A stretch of DNA of 22,908 nucleotides. Origin: Betaproteobacteria bacterium (GTDB lineage: Bacteria > Pseudomonadota > Gammaproteobacteria > Burkholderiales > Burkholderiaceae). Where the stretch lies: NCBI GenBank assembly GCA_947468785.1, contig CANIMS010000001.1, positions 1-22,908 of the forward strand, in the 5' to 3' direction. The notes beneath the pieces are model-generated. The model was not told the origin of the DNA. It did no database searches and worked only from the letters and a program-made list of their open reading frames with translations. Below are positions 16,143-22,908 of the stretch, piece after piece (within the stretch, counting starts at the first letter, position 1; each line of letters begins with the position of its first letter). The position numbers and the translations under genes are program-made.

Positions 16143-16595
16143 ATGAGTATCGTCGATAACAAAAAAGCCTTCTTCGATTATTTTATCGAGGAACGGTTTG
16201 AGGCAGGGCTAGTACTCGAAGGCTGGGAAGTTAAAGCCATTCGGGCTGGTCGCGTGCACATCAAAGAAGCGTATGTTGTCATTCGCAAGGCGGAGCTTTT
16301 TCTGATTGGCTGCCATATTACCCCCCTGCTCTCAGCCTCCACCCACGTCGTTCCTGAGAGCACTCGTACTAGAAAGCTACTTCTAAATGCTATCGAGATC
16401 CGGAAATTAATTGGCAAGGTTGAACAAAAGGGTTACACCCTCGTCCCACTGAACCTTCATTTCTCCAAAGGAAATGTGAAATGTGAAATTGGCTTGGCCA
16501 GAGGCAAAAAGCAGCATGACAAACGCGCTGCCACCAAAGAGCGTGAATGGGAAGTTCAAAAAGGGCGGATTGCTCGGGGCGATTTAAACGCCTAA
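16143..16595 (+). CDS. smpB: SsrA-binding protein SmpB
   Basis: This 150-residue protein binds tmRNA and brings it to stalled ribosomes for trans-translation. It begins [43 protein letters not shown] and continues with GCHITPL, RTRKLLL and KGYTLVPL, all conserved. The C-terminal tail [25 protein letters not shown] forms the helix that enters the mRNA channel. It is divergent from ratA with only 25 bases between start codons, so the smpB promoter must lie partly in ratA. No ssrA gene is found in the window. Confidence 0.97.
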
Positions 16596-16616
16596 AAACG
16601 GAGTAGACTGGCTCGA

Positions 16617-16646
16617 GGTCAATATTCCTCATTGACCAGTATTTTT
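16617..16646 (+). terminator. Weak candidate terminator of smpB
   Basis: A 7-base-pair hairpin (GGTCAAT, loop of seven, ATTGACC) is followed by AGTATTTTT. The stem is AT-rich and the T-tract is offset by four bases, so this is a poor intrinsic terminator, and it may instead be an operator. Confidence 0.25.
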
Positions 16647-16659
16647 GCACTAATAAAGT
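16632..16659 (+). promoter_or_regulatory. Candidate sigma70 promoter for the ATP-grasp/Anbu operon
   Basis: TTGACC (16632-16637, 5 of 6 to consensus) and TAAAGT (16654-16659, 4 of 6) are 16 bases apart. The -35 lies in the right arm of the first dyad and the -10 in the second dyad, so a protein bound to either could control it. A start site near 16667 would leave a leader of about 55 bases. Confidence 0.4.
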
Positions 16660-16662
16660 GCA
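16646..16662. promoter_or_regulatory. NtrC-like operator palindrome TGCACTAATAAAGTGCA
   Basis: This perfect 6-5-6 palindrome has the form TGCAC-T-N5-A-GTGCA. NtrC sites at enterobacterial glnA have the form TGCAC-Y-N5-R-GTGCA. It overlaps the candidate -10 element. No sigma54 promoter (GG-N10-GC) is seen between it and the gene, so a repressing role would be more likely than activation if NtrC binds here. Confidence 0.45.
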
Positions 16663-16722
16663 TACCAGCACCAAGCTGTTTCAAATACTAAACCTCAGTC
16701 TACATAAAGGCAGTAGTTTGTA

Positions 16723-18138
16723 ATGATGAAATTGCCTTTTGATGAAATGCTTGATGCCGCCGGTAAAGCGCGTCCCCACTACCAAATTTTTCATAATTGG
16801 TTGAAGCAGCAAAGTGACAGCTTAATGGGTCTCAAGCGAGCTGAAGCCGATCTCATTTTCAGGCGAGTAGGCATTACCTTTGCAGTCTATGGAGATGACT
16901 TAGGGTCAGAGAGAACCATTCCTTTTGACCAAGTGCCTCGTATTTTTACCGCCAAGGAATGGGAACAACTTGAGGCGGGTTTACGTCAGCGCGTTAAAGC
17001 ATTAAATCGTTTTATCTATGACGTTTATCACGATGAAGAAATTATTAAGGCAGGAATTATTCCTGCAGAACAAATTTTTAATAACGCTCAATATCGACCT
17101 GAGATGCGCAATGTTAGTGTGCCTCGCGATATCTATGCACAAATTGCAGGCATCGATATTGTGCGCGCAGGTGAAGGTGAATTTTATGTCTTAGAGGATA
17201 ACTTACGCGTACCCTCGGGAGTTTCCTATATGGTGGAAGACCGCAAAATGATGATGCGACTCTTTCCTGATCTCTTCCAAAAATATCGCGTTGCGCCAGT
17301 AGAGCACTACCCCGATCTTCTATTGGAATGCCTCAAGTCCGTAAAGCCCGATGACATTAAAAAGCCAACTGTTGTTGTTCTGACTCCAGGCATGTATAAC
17401 TCCGCCTATTTTGAACATAGCTATCTTGCTCAACAAATGGGTGTAGAACTAGTAGAAGGCAAAGATCTATTTGTAAAGAATGAACAAGTCTTTATGCGCA
17501 CCACGCAAGGGCCCCAGCGTGTTGATGTGATCTATCGTCGCGTAGATGATGATTTTCTCGATCCTCTGGCATTCCGCTCGGATTCAACTTTGGGTGTAGC
17601 TGGTCTACTCTCGGCGCATCGCGCAGGAAACGTAACCCTCGCCAACGCCATTGGTACTGGTATTGCTGATGACAAGTCGATCTATCCCTATGTGCCGGAG
17701 ATGATTGAGTTTTACCTCGGGGAAAAGCCTATTCTGAATAACGTCCCCACCTTTCAATGTCGGAAGCCAGATGATTTGGCTTATACACTCGCAAACTTAG
17801 AAAAACTGGTAGTTAAGCTCACTCATGGGGCTGGTGGTTATGGCATGTTGGTTGGCCCGGCCTCGACTAAAAAAGAAATCGAAGAATTTAGAAAGCATCT
17901 GATAGCTAACCCAGATAAATATATTGCTCAACCAACCTTAGCGCTCTCTACCTGCCCAACCTTTGTAGAGTCAGGTGTAGCCCCCAGGCATATCGATCTT
18001 AGACCTTTTGTCCTTTCAGGCAAAACCATCAAGATGGTGCCAGGTGGACTAACACGGGTTGCCCTCAAAGAAGGTTCTTTAGTGGTGAACTCGTCGCAAG
18101 GTGGCGGCACTAAAGATACCTGGGTGCTAGAGGATTAA
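16723..18138 (+). CDS. Circularly permuted ATP-grasp amidoligase (DUF404/DUF407, CP_ATPgrasp type)
   Basis: This 471-residue protein belongs to the DUF404-DUF407 family of circularly permuted ATP-grasp enzymes. Diagnostic segments are GITFAVYGD (about 50-58), LEDNLRVPSGVSYMVEDRK (about 158-176), HGAGGYGMLVGP (about 368-379, nucleotide-binding loop), RHIDLRPFVLSGKT and the C-terminal GGLTRVALKEGSLVVNSSQGGGTKDTWVLED. ATP-grasp ligases join a carboxylate to an amine through an acylphosphate. For this family the product is unknown, but comparative genomics predicts peptide or amide synthesis linked with alpha-E, transglutaminase and Anbu genes, exactly the set found here. The ATG at 16723 is chosen over the one at 16726 because it is nearer to AAAGG. 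It starts the cluster behind the structured leader. Confidence 0.9.
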   Translation: MMKLPFDEMLDAAGKARPHYQIFHNWLKQQSDSLMGLKRAEADLIFRRVGITFAVYGDDLGSERTIPFDQVPRIFTAKEWEQLEAGLRQRVKALNRFIYDVYHDEEIIKAGIIPAEQIFNNAQYRPEMRNVSVPRDIYAQIAGIDIVRAGEGEFYVLEDNLRVPSGVSYMVEDRKMMMRLFPDLFQKYRVAPVEHYPDLLLECLKSVKPDDIKKPTVVVLTPGMYNSAYFEHSYLAQQMGVELVEGKDLFVKNEQVFMRTTQGPQRVDVIYRRVDDDFLDPLAFRSDSTLGVAGLLSAHRAGNVTLANAIGTGIADDKSIYPYVPEMIEFYLGEKPILNNVPTFQCRKPDDLAYTLANLEKLVVKLTHGAGGYGMLVGPASTKKEIEEFRKHLIANPDKYIAQPTLALSTCPTFVESGVAPRHIDLRPFVLSGKTIKMVPGGLTRVALKEGSLVVNSSQGGGTKDTWVLED

Positions 18139-18149
18139 GGAAGAACAAT

Positions 18150-19127
18150 ATGCTAAGTCGCACTGCTGATTGTCTCTACTGGATGGCTAGATATACCGAG
18201 CGCGCGGAAAATACTGCCCGCATGATCGACGTAAATCATCAAACTTCCTTGCTACCTCAACCTGCCGAGTTTTTAGAGCAAAGCTGGAAAAAACTACTCA
18301 CGATTTCTAAATTAGAAGAAGTCTTTCTTAGAAAATATGATGTGATAAATCGTGAGAACGTATTGGACTTCATGATTTATGAGACCAGTAATCCATCTAG
18401 TATTGTTTCTTGCTTATTTGCTGCTCGTGAAAATGCCCGTGTCATTAGAAGCAAAATCACCTCTGAGGTATGGGAAACCCAAAATACCACTTGGCTTGAA
18501 TTGCAGCGGATTCTTGAGGCCAGAAATCAAGCTGATCCTAGTAGATTGCTTGAGTGGGTAAAGCATCGTTGCCATCTCTTTCGTGGGGTGCTCTATGGGA
18601 CGATGCTAAAAAATGAAGCCTTTTATTTCATTAGTGTTGGAACCCTGTTGGAACGCGCTGACAATACCGCCCGCATCCTGGAAACAAAATATGAGGATCA
18701 AGATACTCTAAAAGTCTTTACCCCGAAGAAAGGGTCTGAGGATGGGGCAGATGGTAAATTTTTTGACTTCTATCATTGGGCCGCCCTACTTCGTTCAGTT
18801 TCAGCATTTGAGATCTATCGACAAATCTATTCCGATCAAGTCACCCCAAAACAAGTCGCACAATTACTGATCTTTAACAAACAGATGCCACGCTCTTTGG
18901 TGTGTTGCATTAATGAACTAATCCCTCTCATGTCTGAGTTGAAGAATCAACAGTCAAAAGAAATTGAACGCCTCCTTGGAAAGCTGAAAGCAGGCTTGGA
19001 TTACTCTGATATCGACGAAGTCTTTGAACAGGGCTTAGAAGAGTTTATTGAAGCCTTCTTAGAGCGCATTAACCACATTGCAGATGAATTTAGTAACGCC
19101 TATCTCATTCCATTGGCTGTTGCTTAA
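18150..19127 (+). CDS. Alpha-E domain protein (DUF403)
   Basis: This 325-residue, mostly helical protein starts with MLSRTADCLYWMARYTERAENTARMIDV, the hallmark of the alpha-E (DUF403) family, and repeats the motif as GTLLERADNTARILE at about residue 165-180. The acidic and Arg residues in the ERAENTAR helices are the invariant positions of the family. Alpha-E proteins are almost always next to DUF404/407 ATP-grasp genes and may supply a substrate-binding or second catalytic unit; biochemical function is not known. It begins 11 bases after the ATP-grasp stop behind a good AAGGA (18137-18141) and ends 17 bases before the transglutaminase gene. Confidence 0.9.
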   Translation: MLSRTADCLYWMARYTERAENTARMIDVNHQTSLLPQPAEFLEQSWKKLLTISKLEEVFLRKYDVINRENVLDFMIYETSNPSSIVSCLFAARENARVIRSKITSEVWETQNTTWLELQRILEARNQADPSRLLEWVKHRCHLFRGVLYGTMLKNEAFYFISVGTLLERADNTARILETKYEDQDTLKVFTPKKGSEDGADGKFFDFYHWAALLRSVSAFEIYRQIYSDQVTPKQVAQLLIFNKQMPRSLVCCINELIPLMSELKNQQSKEIERLLGKLKAGLDYSDIDEVFEQGLEEFIEAFLERINHIADEFSNAYLIPLAVA

Positions 19128-19144
19128 GAAACGATAAAGACTAT

Positions 19145-19942
19145 ATGCATTTGAAGATTCGACACCGAACTGAATACCGATATGAAATGCCGGTGCGCTA
19201 CTCAATCCAAGAATTACGCTTAACGCCACCCACCACTTCTGGTCAACAAATTGATAAGTGGAAGATTAGTACCCCGATCAAAGCAACAACATCCATTGAT
19301 ATCTTTGGTAATCTTTGCAGCGTCTTTACCCAAGAGCGCCCATATACCTCCATGATGATTGAGGCAGAGGGAGAAATACATACTCAGGATGCCTTTGAGT
19401 TTATGGATACTGCAAAAGCAGTTTCACCGTTTTACCTCTTGCAGCAAACCAATCTTACTGAGCCCACAGGAGATATGCTGAACTATTTCTCCTCAAGTCT
19501 TCCAAAGAAAAATTCAGTAGATGCTGTTTTAACCTTAGCTGAATCTGTTCAGAAAACAATTGAGTATGTACTAGGTCAAACTAACTTTGCCACGACTGCT
19601 GCTCAATCATTCGCCATGAAGTCTGGTGTTTGCCAAGATCACGCCCACGTCATGCTGGGCCTACTTCGGGCATCTAATATTCCAGCTCGCTATGTGAGCG
19701 GGTATTTCTTTGCAGAAGAATCTCCCAATCTCGCCAGCCACGCATGGATTGATTTTTGTAGCGATATTGATAAAGGCCTCTGGACTAGCGTAGACATTAC
19801 CCATGCCTGCCTTATTGACTCTCGTCATATCCGACTGGCGATCGGACGTGATTATTATTCTGCCGCGCCCGTCAAAGGGGTACGTTCTGGAGGTGGAGGC
19901 GAAGAATTGACAGCCAATATCTCCATTCAACTCGCACCCTAA
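19145..19942 (+). CDS. Transglutaminase-like cysteine peptidase
   Basis: This 265-residue protein has the N-terminal bacterial transglutaminase beta domain (LKIRHRTEYRYEMPV...QELRLTPP, about 3-30) and a papain-fold core. The catalytic triad is visible: Cys163 in SGVCQDHAHVM, His199 in SHAWIDF and Asp217 in WTSVDITH. RLAIGRDYYSAAPVKG (about 230-245) is also typical. Bacterial members more often hydrolyse amide bonds than cross-link. With no signal peptide it should act in the cytoplasm, and beside an amidoligase and Anbu it is a candidate for removing or processing the bond the ligase forms. It follows the alpha-E gene by 17 bases and precedes anbu by 53 bases. Confidence 0.92.
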   Translation: MHLKIRHRTEYRYEMPVRYSIQELRLTPPTTSGQQIDKWKISTPIKATTSIDIFGNLCSVFTQERPYTSMMIEAEGEIHTQDAFEFMDTAKAVSPFYLLQQTNLTEPTGDMLNYFSSSLPKKNSVDAVLTLAESVQKTIEYVLGQTNFATTAAQSFAMKSGVCQDHAHVMLGLLRASNIPARYVSGYFFAEESPNLASHAWIDFCSDIDKGLWTSVDITHACLIDSRHIRLAIGRDYYSAAPVKGVRSGGGGEELTANISIQLAP

Positions 19943-19995
19943 AATCACTTAGCCATTTAAGGGATAATTCTTGGAACAATGAAAAGGGTAATAGT

Positions 19996-20865
19996 ATGAC
20001 GTATTGCGTAGGACTATGTCTAAAGGATGGCCTCGTATTTCTCTCAGATACCCGCACTAATGCCGGGGTAGATCAAATTGGCACTTTTAGAAAGATGACC
20101 TTATTCCAAGATAAGGATCGCTTTTTTACTCTCATGAGCGCTGGCAATTTGGCTGTTACTCAGGCAGTTAAAGAAATTCTGCTCCAAGGTCAATTACTTA
20201 ATCATGAGAATCTTTGGACCGTTAAAAATTCTCATGATGCTGCTGTCGTCGTAGGTGATGCTGTTAAACAAGTGTATGAACGTGATCATCTGGCCCTTGA
20301 AAAGGCTGGAATTGATTTCAACTGTAATTTAATATTTGGCGGGCAAATTAAAGGTGAAAGGCCACGCCTTTTTAATATTTACTCGGCTGGAAACTTTATA
20401 GAAGCCACACCTGAGACTTGCTACTTCCAAATTGGAGAGGCAAAGTACGGTAAGCCTATTTTAGATCGTGTGGTTAACTTTTCGACCGCACTTAACCTTG
20501 CTACAAAATGTGCCTTAATTTCAATGGATTCAACACTTAATAGCAACATTTCAGTTGGACTACCATTAGATCTCTTGGTGTACGAAAAGAATTCATTAAA
20601 GCCTAGTAAGCTAGTTACCCTAGATGAATCCAATCCCTACTTTCAGATGATTCATCAACTCTGGGGCGAGAAGCTCCGCGCTGCTTTTAACTCAATTGCG
20701 GAACCGAGCTGGAGTGGCGCACAAAAATCAAGTGCAATCTCAGCGCCTGCCAAAAAAATGGTTCCGGTTCCGGTTCATCATCGACCCCCAAAACCAAAGA
20801 GAGCGCAGTCTAGCGCTAAAACTAGCAAACCTGCCAAGAAGGCCTTATCAAAGAAAAAAGCCTAG
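19996..20865 (+). CDS. anbu: Anbu (proteasome-related Ntn-hydrolase peptidase) with Lys-rich C-terminal tail
   Basis: This 289-residue protein starts MTYCVGLCLKDGLVFLSDTR, the Anbu (ancestral beta subunit) N-terminus. Thr2 becomes the N-terminal nucleophile after Met removal, with no propeptide. Asp18 and Lys33 match the proteasome active-site Asp and Lys. SAGNLAVTQ and the GGQIKGERPRLFNIYSAGNFI segment are also family features. Anbu assembles into open, spiral-like rings; its natural substrate is not known. The core ends near residue 240. The last 50 or so residues form a low-complexity tail rich in Lys, Pro, Ala and Ser (about 16 Lys, ending KKALSKKKA), longer than in typical Anbu of about 245 residues. 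A GAAAAGGG precedes the ATG. It is the last gene of the cluster and its stop codon lies inside the terminator hairpin. Confidence 0.92.
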   Translation: MTYCVGLCLKDGLVFLSDTRTNAGVDQIGTFRKMTLFQDKDRFFTLMSAGNLAVTQAVKEILLQGQLLNHENLWTVKNSHDAAVVVGDAVKQVYERDHLALEKAGIDFNCNLIFGGQIKGERPRLFNIYSAGNFIEATPETCYFQIGEAKYGKPILDRVVNFSTALNLATKCALISMDSTLNSNISVGLPLDLLVYEKNSLKPSKLVTLDESNPYFQMIHQLWGEKLRAAFNSIAEPSWSGAQKSSAISAPAKKMVPVPVHHRPPKPKRAQSSAKTSKPAKKALSKKKA

Positions 20866-20902: not shown

Positions 20903-22908
20903 TTACTTCTTACCTAACATCTCCCAAGTAGCAACTACGCTATCTGGATTTAAAGAAATTGAAGTAATGCCCTTCTCTACCAACCAGCGGGCAAAATCAG
21001 GATGGTCTGATGGTCCTTGACCACAAATACCAACATATTTATTTTGTTTACGGCAAGCATTAATAGAGCGCTCAATCATGAACTCTACCGCCGGGTCACG
21101 TTCATCAAAATCGATTGCCAGCAACTCCATACCGGAGTCACGATCAAGGCCTAGCGTTAACTGGGTCATATCGTTAGAACCAATTGAGAAACCATCAAAG
21201 TACTCAAGGAACTGATCTGCCAGGATGGCATTGGAAGGAATCTCGCACATCATAATGAGACGTAAACCGTTCACCCCGCGCTTGAGGCCTAACTTTTCCA
21301 TCATATTAATCACGCGCTCTGCTTGTTTGATCGTACGAACAAACGGAACCATGATTTCAACGTTATCAAGACCCATATCTTCTCTAACGCGCTTCATTGC
21401 AGCGCACTCTAGCGCAAACGCTTCACCAAAATCCTCGGAAACATAACGAGATGCTCCTCGGAAACCGAGCATTGGGTTTTCTTCATCGGGCTCGTAACGT
21501 GAACCGCCAATTAGCTTCTTATATTCATTTGACTTGAAGTCGGATAAGCGGACGATAACGGGTTTTGGATAGAATGCCGCTGCAATAGTTGCAACGCCTT
21601 CGACCAATTTATCTTCGTAGAACTGGCGTGGACTAGCATAGCCACGAGCAACGCTTTCCACGGCACGCTTTAGCTCTGGATCAACATTAGGGTACTCCAA
21701 AACGGCACGTGGATGAACGCCGATGTAGTTATTAATAATGAACTCTAAGCGTGCTAGACCTACGCCGGCATTCGGAATTTGGCAGAAATCAAATGCCAAC
21801 TGAGGGTTGCCGATATTCATCGTGATCTTTACTGGAATCTCTGGCAATACCCCACGAGAAACTTCAGTCACCTCAGTCTCAATTAAGCCATCGTAAATAT
21901 GACCCTCATCACCTTCCGCACAGGATACCGTCACAACCATACCATCTTGCAATTGGTCAGTAGCATCACCACAACCTACTACCGCAGGCACGCCTAGTTC
22001 ACGCGCAATAATCGCTGCATGGCAAGTACGTCCGCCACGATTAGTAACAATCGCTGAAGCACGCTTCATCACTGGTTCCCAATTAGGATCCGTCATATCG
22101 GCAACCAATACATCGCCCGGTTGTACGCGATCCATTTCGCTTGGATCACGAATAATGCGTACAGGACCAGCGCCAATCTTTTGACCAATTGCGCGCCCTT
22201 TGGCTAATACTTTTGAGCTACCTTTGAGCTTGTAGCGCATTTCTACCTGCCCAGCAGCTTGGCTCTTGACAGTCTCGGGGCGTGCCTGGAGGATATAAAT
22301 ACGGCCATCTTGACCGTCTTTGCCCCACTCGATATCCATTGGACGACCGTAGTGCTTTTCAATAATGACAGCATACTTAGCCAACTCAGTAATATCAGCA
22401 TCTTCTAATGAAAAACGATTGCGTTTTTCTGGAGTCACATCAATCGTTTGAACTTTTTCAGCAGAACCCTTAGGGGCGAACTGCATCTGAATTAACTTAG
22501 AGCCTAAAGAACGACGAATGATCGCTTTCTTATTTTGGGCCAATGTAGTTTTAAAGACATAAAACTCATCGGGATTGACTGCGCCCTGCACTACTGTCTC
22601 ACCCAAGCCATAACTTGAAGTAATGAAGACTACATCCTCAAAACCTGACTCCGTATCTAAAGTAAACATCACGCCAGCAGCACCCAGATCTGAGCGCACC
22701 ATACGCTGAATACCAGCAGATAAGGCTACTTCTGCATGGGCAAAGCCCTTATGCACACGATAGGAGATGGCGCGATCGTTATATAAAGATGCAAATACTT
22801 CGCGAATCTTCTTCAAAACATCATCGATTCCTTCCACATTGAGGAAGGTCTCTTGTTGACCAGCAAAGGAAGCATCTGGCAAATCTTCAGCAGTGGCGGA
22901 AGAGCGCA
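20903..22908 (-). CDS. ppsA: Phosphoenolpyruvate synthase PpsA, C-terminal part, 5' truncated by window edge
   Basis: The frame is open to the window edge: codons before the in-frame TTG at 22882 read [19 protein letters not shown], the conserved ATP-binding region, so the true start lies outside. The enzyme makes PEP, AMP and phosphate from pyruvate and ATP. Visible parts are the rest of the ATP-grasp domain ([25 protein letters not shown]), the phosphohistidine domain with the catalytic His in [15 protein letters not shown], and the PEP-binding barrel. The barrel contains [16 protein letters not shown], the [17 protein letters not shown] substrate loop and the catalytic Cys of [14 protein letters not shown]. 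About 669 residues are present of the usual 790-800. It converges on anbu, 37 bases apart. Confidence 0.96.

Follow-up and report, generated by a model that had tools for sequence, protein, structure and literature searches.

Anbu is a protein for which structures have been solved and no function is known, as far as the available text of three reports goes (PMC5666114, PMC6376114, PMC8665760). The first of these describes a four-gene Anbu operon with a proposed role in peptide synthesis, and states that Anbu is up in nitrogen-limited Pseudomonas putida; the second records phosphate release by the ATP-grasp protein of the operon. In the accessible parts of further papers, a DUF404/407-DUF403-TG-TG cluster (TG, transglutaminase-like) is NtrC-dependent (PMC5491218), COG3484 belongs to a σ54 regulon cluster (PMC12316311), and DUF404/407, DUF403 and TG-type domains correlate with urea metabolism in metagenomes (PMC3597751). 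Here we analyse a block of four genes, coding for an ATP-grasp ligase, an alpha-E (DUF403) protein, a TG protein and Anbu, that lies in a stretch of 22,908 nucleotides (nt; GCA_947468785.1, contig CANIMS010000001.1, positions 1–22,908). This stretch is referred to as the window, and its numbering is used for all coordinates. The window comes from a freshwater bacterium, and the system itself was reportedly proposed in a survey of 2009.

Related genomes were sampled at the level of the class (114 genomes), the family (100) and the genus (146). The data suggest that the ligase/alpha-E pair is the core of the system and that the hydrolases around it vary, with Anbu or TG absent in some genomes. 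Because the genes occur together even when unlinked, are lost as a block and keep their catalytic residues, the view that the four form one evolutionary unit is supported. The reading that we favour, with belief and doubt nearly in balance, is that the block constitutes an Ntr-controlled system for making and breaking amide bonds, with a ligase whose predicted model is nearest in fold to the glutathione and glutathionylspermidine synthetases.

Results

The four genes and their products

Open reading frames and Pfam matches (E 0.01, 15 window proteins) agree on four consecutive, intact + strand genes at 16723..20865, of the families that a preliminary description of this DNA had named. The first (16723..18138; 471 amino acids, aa) encodes a circularly permuted ATP-grasp ligase (PF14403, 3.7e-167, and PF04174), the second (18150..19127; 325 aa) the all-helical alpha-E protein (PF04168, 8.3e-98), the third (19145..19942; 265 aa) a TG protein with a Cys163-His199-Asp217 triad (PF08379 and PF01841; PDB entry 3isr, 1.6e-13), and the fourth (19996..20865; 289 aa) Anbu, which matches PF00227 weakly and the PDB Anbu sequence 5loy at 8.7e-83. 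PF00227 is barely over its curated cut-off (22.9 vs 22.4 bits), and the other five families are well over theirs. Residues 1–240 of Anbu (19996..20715) make up the N-terminal nucleophile (Ntn) hydrolase domain, as judged from the PDB match and alignment, with Thr2, Asp18 and Lys33 as Thr1, Asp17 and Lys32 of the mature protein. These catalytic residues, all seen in the preliminary description, are nearly invariant in relatives that cover at least 90% of the profile (shorter rows were dropped, and the TG rows include paralogues): Thr2 is kept in 64/65, the remaining row having no N-terminus, Asp18 and Lys33 in 65/65, Cys163 in 56/57, and His199 and Asp217 in 57/57.

By sequence, PDB relatives were found for the ligase (3n6x, E 1e-218), Anbu (5loy, 5nyw, 5nyj, 5nyf and 5lox) and the TG protein (3isr, and weakly 6g49). 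For alpha-E none was convincing (best E 0.47); its predicted model scored a pLDDT of 88.5 and a pTM of 0.88. The Anbu sequence alignment reaches nearly to the end of 5loy. The places of the Anbu S1 pocket are occupied in the window by Thr, Phe, Ser, Leu and Thr, three identical and two conservative relative to the Anbu-1 pocket of P. aeruginosa (Thr20, Phe30, Thr48, Leu52 and Ser55 in the available part of the printed account), and they differ from the printed Anbu-2 pocket. The closest Anbu relatives with an organism name are Polynucleobacter proteins. No AAA+ partner gene was found among the 15 window proteins to which the scan was confined.

The block is flanked by smpB (16143..16595, + strand; PF01668, 1.9e-55), which ends 127 bp before the ligase gene, and by a convergent ppsA-like gene (20903..22882, − strand) that was recognized from its translation, without a family scan, and whose open frame continues to the window edge. 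The names PpsA, GuaB and RatA for window genes are our assumption. The smpB/ppsA interval is the position of the block in most genus loci read. Of the span 16596..20865 given earlier for the cluster, the end holds; the start falls directly after smpB, and 16596–16722 is intergenic. The gaps within the block, of 11, 17 and 53 bp, leave no room for a modifier-peptide gene of usual size, in agreement with the earlier view that the cluster contains no obvious one.

Co-occurrence of the four families

Co-occurrence across genomes, by which the preliminary description had proposed to check its grouping, proved close. In the class sample ATP-grasp and alpha-E share the identical 31 of 114 genomes, and Anbu and TG are virtually confined to the same set. 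Anbu is found in 25 genomes, 24 of them within these 31; the lone exception (G020) is a fragment covering query residues 1–123, with a weak ATP-grasp-like remnant next to it. The TG N-terminal domain occurs in 25 genomes, all inside the core 31 (the matches in G017 and G110 are weak, 33–35 bits), and full-length Peptidase_Mx (>200 bits) in 12, likewise all inside; six further genomes, including the core genome G033, gave weak partial matches of 21–38 bits. Every one of the 31 core genomes has Anbu, TG or Peptidase_Mx, or more than one of these hydrolase families.

In the family sample Anbu was found in 59 genomes and alpha-E in 72. Each of the 59 also gave a match to alpha-E (a broken one in G202 and G136 at least), and 13 of the 72 alpha-E genomes are without Anbu. 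Anbu is unlinked to a full-length alpha-E, being on another contig or distant, in 10/59 (G126, G132, G135, G143, G147, G162, G166, G175, G184 and G190), and in G162 there is an extra, second Anbu next to remnants. The Anbu neighbourhoods read in G126, G132, G135, G162 (copy at 754908), G166 and G175 hold no partner; in G132, G135, G166 and G175, ATP-grasp, alpha-E and TG are grouped elsewhere in the genome.

A second, fused ATP-grasp/alpha-E protein of about 850–918 aa is encoded in 40 family-set genomes (e.g. G173:C1:632410 and L112:2733-5396), all of which also hold a stand-alone alpha-E (in pieces in G172).

Variation of the hydrolases

Locus content was counted within the fetched stretch for 80 named loci. 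ATP-grasp with alpha-E is present in 78, and the other two, close to contig or fetch limits, have alpha-E only. The 78 comprise 31 loci with all four families, 31 with the pair and TG, three with the pair and Anbu, ten with the pair alone and three with the pair, TG and Peptidase_Mx. Peptidase_Mx is found in 5/6 TG-less class core genomes vs 7/25 with TG (p 0.02), and in the same locus at ten loci (L082, L084, L087, L090, L093, L096, L100, L111, L169 and L170). At one Anbu-less ATP-grasp/alpha-E locus (L110:11099-12844) the third gene encodes TG with a fused class-II glutamine amidotransferase domain; such an amidotransferase domain is, like Anbu, an Ntn hydrolase. Within the genus, the smpB site of G326 (L154; L183 is, by its length, the same contig) carries ATP-grasp and alpha-E only, with TG elsewhere and no Anbu match, and in G224 (L160) Anbu directly follows alpha-E and TG is at another place in the genome.

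The preliminary description had taken the four proteins for a complete cycle. A ligase together with amide hydrolases does fit a make-and-break scheme; that the four are equal partners is not supported, given that Anbu or TG is missing in some genomes (such as G326), that Peptidase_Mx occurs in most TG-less core genomes and that Anbu genes outside the operon are without the control sites described below.

Nitrogen-control-like sites upstream

Upstream comparison suggests that sequences similar to nitrogen-starvation control sites, including putative NtrC sites, frequently precede the block. Intergenic alignment at the smpB site identified a 17 bp NtrC-type palindrome, TGCACTAATAAAGTGCA (TGCAC-N7-GTGCA), at 16646..16662 (+ strand) in the window. 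Among the 26 smpB-site upstreams it is exact in 21, where it lies at −90 to −102, and present with at most one mismatch in 24, and it agrees with the NtrC consensus TGCACCAnnnTGGTGCA in the available part of PMC8743547. As the sole window match with at most one mismatch is not above chance (0.81 expected), the weight of this box rests on its conservation.

The upstream set consisted of the 300 nt before stand-alone ATP-grasp genes, identical or short upstreams being dropped, at loci with and without Anbu. Outside the smpB site an exact palindrome stands in 9/94 upstreams and one with no more than a single mismatch in 26/94, the controls giving 1/3785 and 48/3785; four of the nine exact cases (L063, L155, L161 and L181), some of them genus members, carry it at −90 to −93. 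A σ54-like element (GG-N10-GC −24/−12 consensus, at most two mismatches) was found in 50/94 of these upstreams vs 68/3550 other mechanical open reading frames in the loci. Thirty rounds of dinucleotide shuffling averaged 1.5 (at most 5), the permuted consensus averaged 1.0 (at most 4) and the reverse strand gave 3; before fused ATP-grasp genes the count was 0/17. Among the 15 relatives with both sites, the box lies 34–117 bp upstream of the −24/−12 element (start to start) in 13, and in the other two it is overlapping (10) or downstream (−12). In the window, a σ70-like consensus match (TTGACC-16-TAAAGT; 16632..16659, + strand) overlaps the palindrome; such matches are not above shuffles there (6 found, 12.1 expected).

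Probable loss, and decay, of the block within the genus

In the genus sample of 146 genomes, Anbu was matched in 119, ATP-grasp in 120 and neither in 26, G326 being the sole discordant genome; 20 of the 26 were listed in both searches and six were deduced from absence in the lists. The 26 have no ATP-grasp match, stand-alone or fused, and the TG domain is absent in 25 (present in G268) and was found in 8/8 core genomes tested alongside. In 25, smpB is followed by convergent ppsA at a distance of 0–255 bp; in G217 no ppsA was present within the 1.5 kb read.

A quick-method tree of 50 rows (the 26 genomes without the block, 23 with it, and G326) requires 11 presence changes, at least seven of which are forced by branches with Shimodaira–Hasegawa-like approximate likelihood ratio test (SH-aLRT) support of at least 95. 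Five loci without marker genes were dropped, row L151, an error-rich assembly, was kept, and the midpoint root serves for drawing. The long-branch rows L157 and L159 have the block at the same site. Moreover, the NtrC-type box persists at 7/26 empty smpB-ppsA sites (L119, L124, L128, L130, L131, L132 and L138), five times exactly and twice with one mismatch. Given the forced changes, the shared site in the long-branch rows and the leftover boxes, the block is most simply read as having been lost repeatedly between smpB and ppsA. That linked genes are lost together does not by itself prove a joint pathway.

A decaying block was seen in six small genus genomes (L065 and L146-L150: G202, G239, G241, G242, G243 and G245), which we take to be possible ciliate endosymbionts; ATP-grasp and alpha-E are broken in 6/6 and the Anbu domain in 2/6. 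In G319 (L163:6197-7716) alpha-E is split by about 1.5 kb of DNA of no identified kind and its neighbours are intact, and in G320:C1, near 1112387 and 1134793, ATP-grasp and Anbu each occur twice, about 22 kb apart.

C-terminal tails of Anbu

The five PDB Anbu sequences match the window Anbu only to residue 232–239 of 289. Beyond this part extends a Lys/Arg-rich tail of about 49 aa (20716..20862, + strand). Tails of Burkholderiales Anbu (the Anbu genes in L059-L255) are mostly 25–69 aa long past the PDB-matched part, and the tail is short or absent in many Anbu. The sample comprised 71 distinct tails of at least 25 aa, 25 of Polynucleobacter type and 46 others. Lys and Arg make up 29% of the former vs 10% of the latter, a comparison in which the choice of Polynucleobacter-type tails by a Lys-containing string (e.g. 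KKMG) slightly favours basic tails. In the 46 others the motif Q[TYSLV]L[AS][QE] (QTLAQ-like) occurs in 29, within-tail shuffles averaging 0.09.

Discussion

The gene set, the conserved catalytic residues, the hydrolases' dependence on the core, the enrichment of control-like sites and the fold of the ligase model were all computed; we infer the directions of the reactions, a small-molecule rather than a protein substrate, and the binding of NtrC and its sign. In the proposed system, NtrC (with σ54 in many relatives) would turn on the ligase/alpha-E pair under nitrogen limitation, and the ligase, of predicted glutathione-synthetase fold, would couple an amine with the carboxylate of a peptide or an amino acid, alpha-E being its obligate helical partner. 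The product would be opened again by amide hydrolases that belong to this pathway. Anbu would act as an N-terminal-Thr amidase and TG as a TG-fold Cys hydrolase; elsewhere the part would fall to Peptidase_Mx or the class-II amidotransferase-TG fusion. Amide-bound nitrogen may thereby be stored, carried or released.

A bolder form of this proposal is possible, and we hold it with distinctly more doubt. It would see a widespread proteobacterial nitrogen-starvation pathway, not described as a unit in searchable papers, in which an amide-linked carrier of nitrogen is made by the NtrC/σ54-controlled ligase and alpha-E and opened interchangeably by unrelated amide hydrolases, namely Anbu, TG, Peptidase_Mx and the class-II amidotransferase fusion. 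The Anbu particle would then be a specialised amidase in this pathway, docked by means of a tail motif that is specific to the lineage, rather than a proteasome that degrades proteins.

Several findings weigh against an Ntr-controlled amide system. In the available part of PMC6376114, Anbu is reported to be without peptidase activity on three standard substrates and without specific interactions among the operon proteins. The canonical −24/−12 element occurs in 0/26 smpB-site upstreams, window included, neither site is found in 33/94 upstreams elsewhere, and the σ54 signal comes also from Anbu-less loci. The window box overlaps the σ70-like −10 and could be a repressor site or bind another protein. 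Stand-alone or first-gene Anbu has a σ54-like site in 1/35 cases and an NtrC-type box in 0/35, and so Anbu itself need not be nitrogen-controlled. In four of the decaying loci (G202, G239, G243 and G245) the Anbu domain can still be read next to ATP-grasp and alpha-E genes that are broken, and in G216 (L152) Anbu is without its in-frame start region, including the catalytic Thr, with ATP-grasp, alpha-E and TG intact. Finally, all genome counts are raw, kinship being ignored.

A system for tagging and degrading proteins would explain the block if the ligase adds a peptide tag that TG shortens or recycles and the tagged protein is broken down by the Anbu particle. This hypothesis is already in print (PMC6376114, in the part available), and the homology of Anbu to proteasome beta, with Thr, Asp and Lys conserved, speaks for it. 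We consider it unlikely: the block has no tag-peptide gene, the predicted ligase fold is nearest to small-peptide ligases, and 13/72 alpha-E genomes of the family sample do without Anbu.

Slightly less credible is the idea that Anbu is a general nitrogen-starvation peptidase that merely adjoins a separate ligase/alpha-E/TG pathway. The unlinked Anbu genes in 10/59 family genomes, the solo or first-gene Anbu without control sites, the four decaying loci and the response reported in nitrogen-limited P. putida (PMC5666114, in part) would all be expected. However, an alpha-E match accompanies Anbu in 59/59 family and 24/25 class genomes, albeit broken in at least two of the family genomes, G202 and G136.

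That TG is a cross-linking or amine-transferring enzyme acting on a protein target, perhaps the QTLAQ-like or Lys-rich Anbu tail, seems improbable. The enriched glutamine motif and the high Lys/Arg content of the two groups of tails would suit such a role, but many Anbu have a short tail or none, and a putative metallopeptidase replaces TG in 5/6 TG-less core genomes, which suggests hydrolysis. Still more improbable is that the genes are neighbours with no common pathway and co-occur through being transferred and deleted together as a linked block. The empty genus sites do resemble linked-block deletions that are possible in one event, but co-occurrence persists when Anbu or TG sit elsewhere in the genome.

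If the block is indeed a core pair with varying hydrolases in the nitrogen-limitation response, the growth condition is defined, ATP-grasp or alpha-E becomes the first deletion target and amide conjugates at low nitrogen are the analytes, and the frequent nitrogen-control-like sites make the job of the gene set testable. Polynucleobacter offers a natural experiment, with related genomes that have or lack the entire block at one site.

Comparison with known systems

The gene set and the ligase/peptidase prediction are already published; the facts of the preliminary description are correct, its interpretation was largely known, and it missed the published nitrogen evidence (PMC5491218, PMC12316311). 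Additions made here are the control-like sites, the order of dependency with ligase and alpha-E at its head, the variation among the hydrolases, the recurrent loss of the block in the genus and the conservation of the Anbu tails.

Eukaryote-type glutathione synthetase (2hgs, 3kal) is about 14% identical to the ligase, and nothing points to a glutathione product. The Escherichia coli glutathionylspermidine synthetase (GspS) shares the fold predicted for the window ligase; in contrast, the latter has no Pfam match to that family (E 0.01), and its hydrolases are separate proteins of other folds. The NtrC/σ54-dependent genes I35_5080-5083 of Burkholderia cenocepacia H111, in the available text, likewise place DUF404/407, DUF403 and TG under nitrogen control; of the four genes listed there, one encodes a large TG protein and none encodes Anbu, whereas the window has an NtrC-type box only. 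From the Anbu operon of Yersinia, Pseudomonas and other bacteria the window differs in its smpB/ppsA location, its Lys/Arg-rich tail and its NtrC-type box without a canonical −24/−12 element. The four families are nevertheless the same, and their order in the window, ATP-grasp, alpha-E, TG and Anbu on one strand, is the conserved order described for that operon in the available parts of PMC5666114 and PMC6376114.

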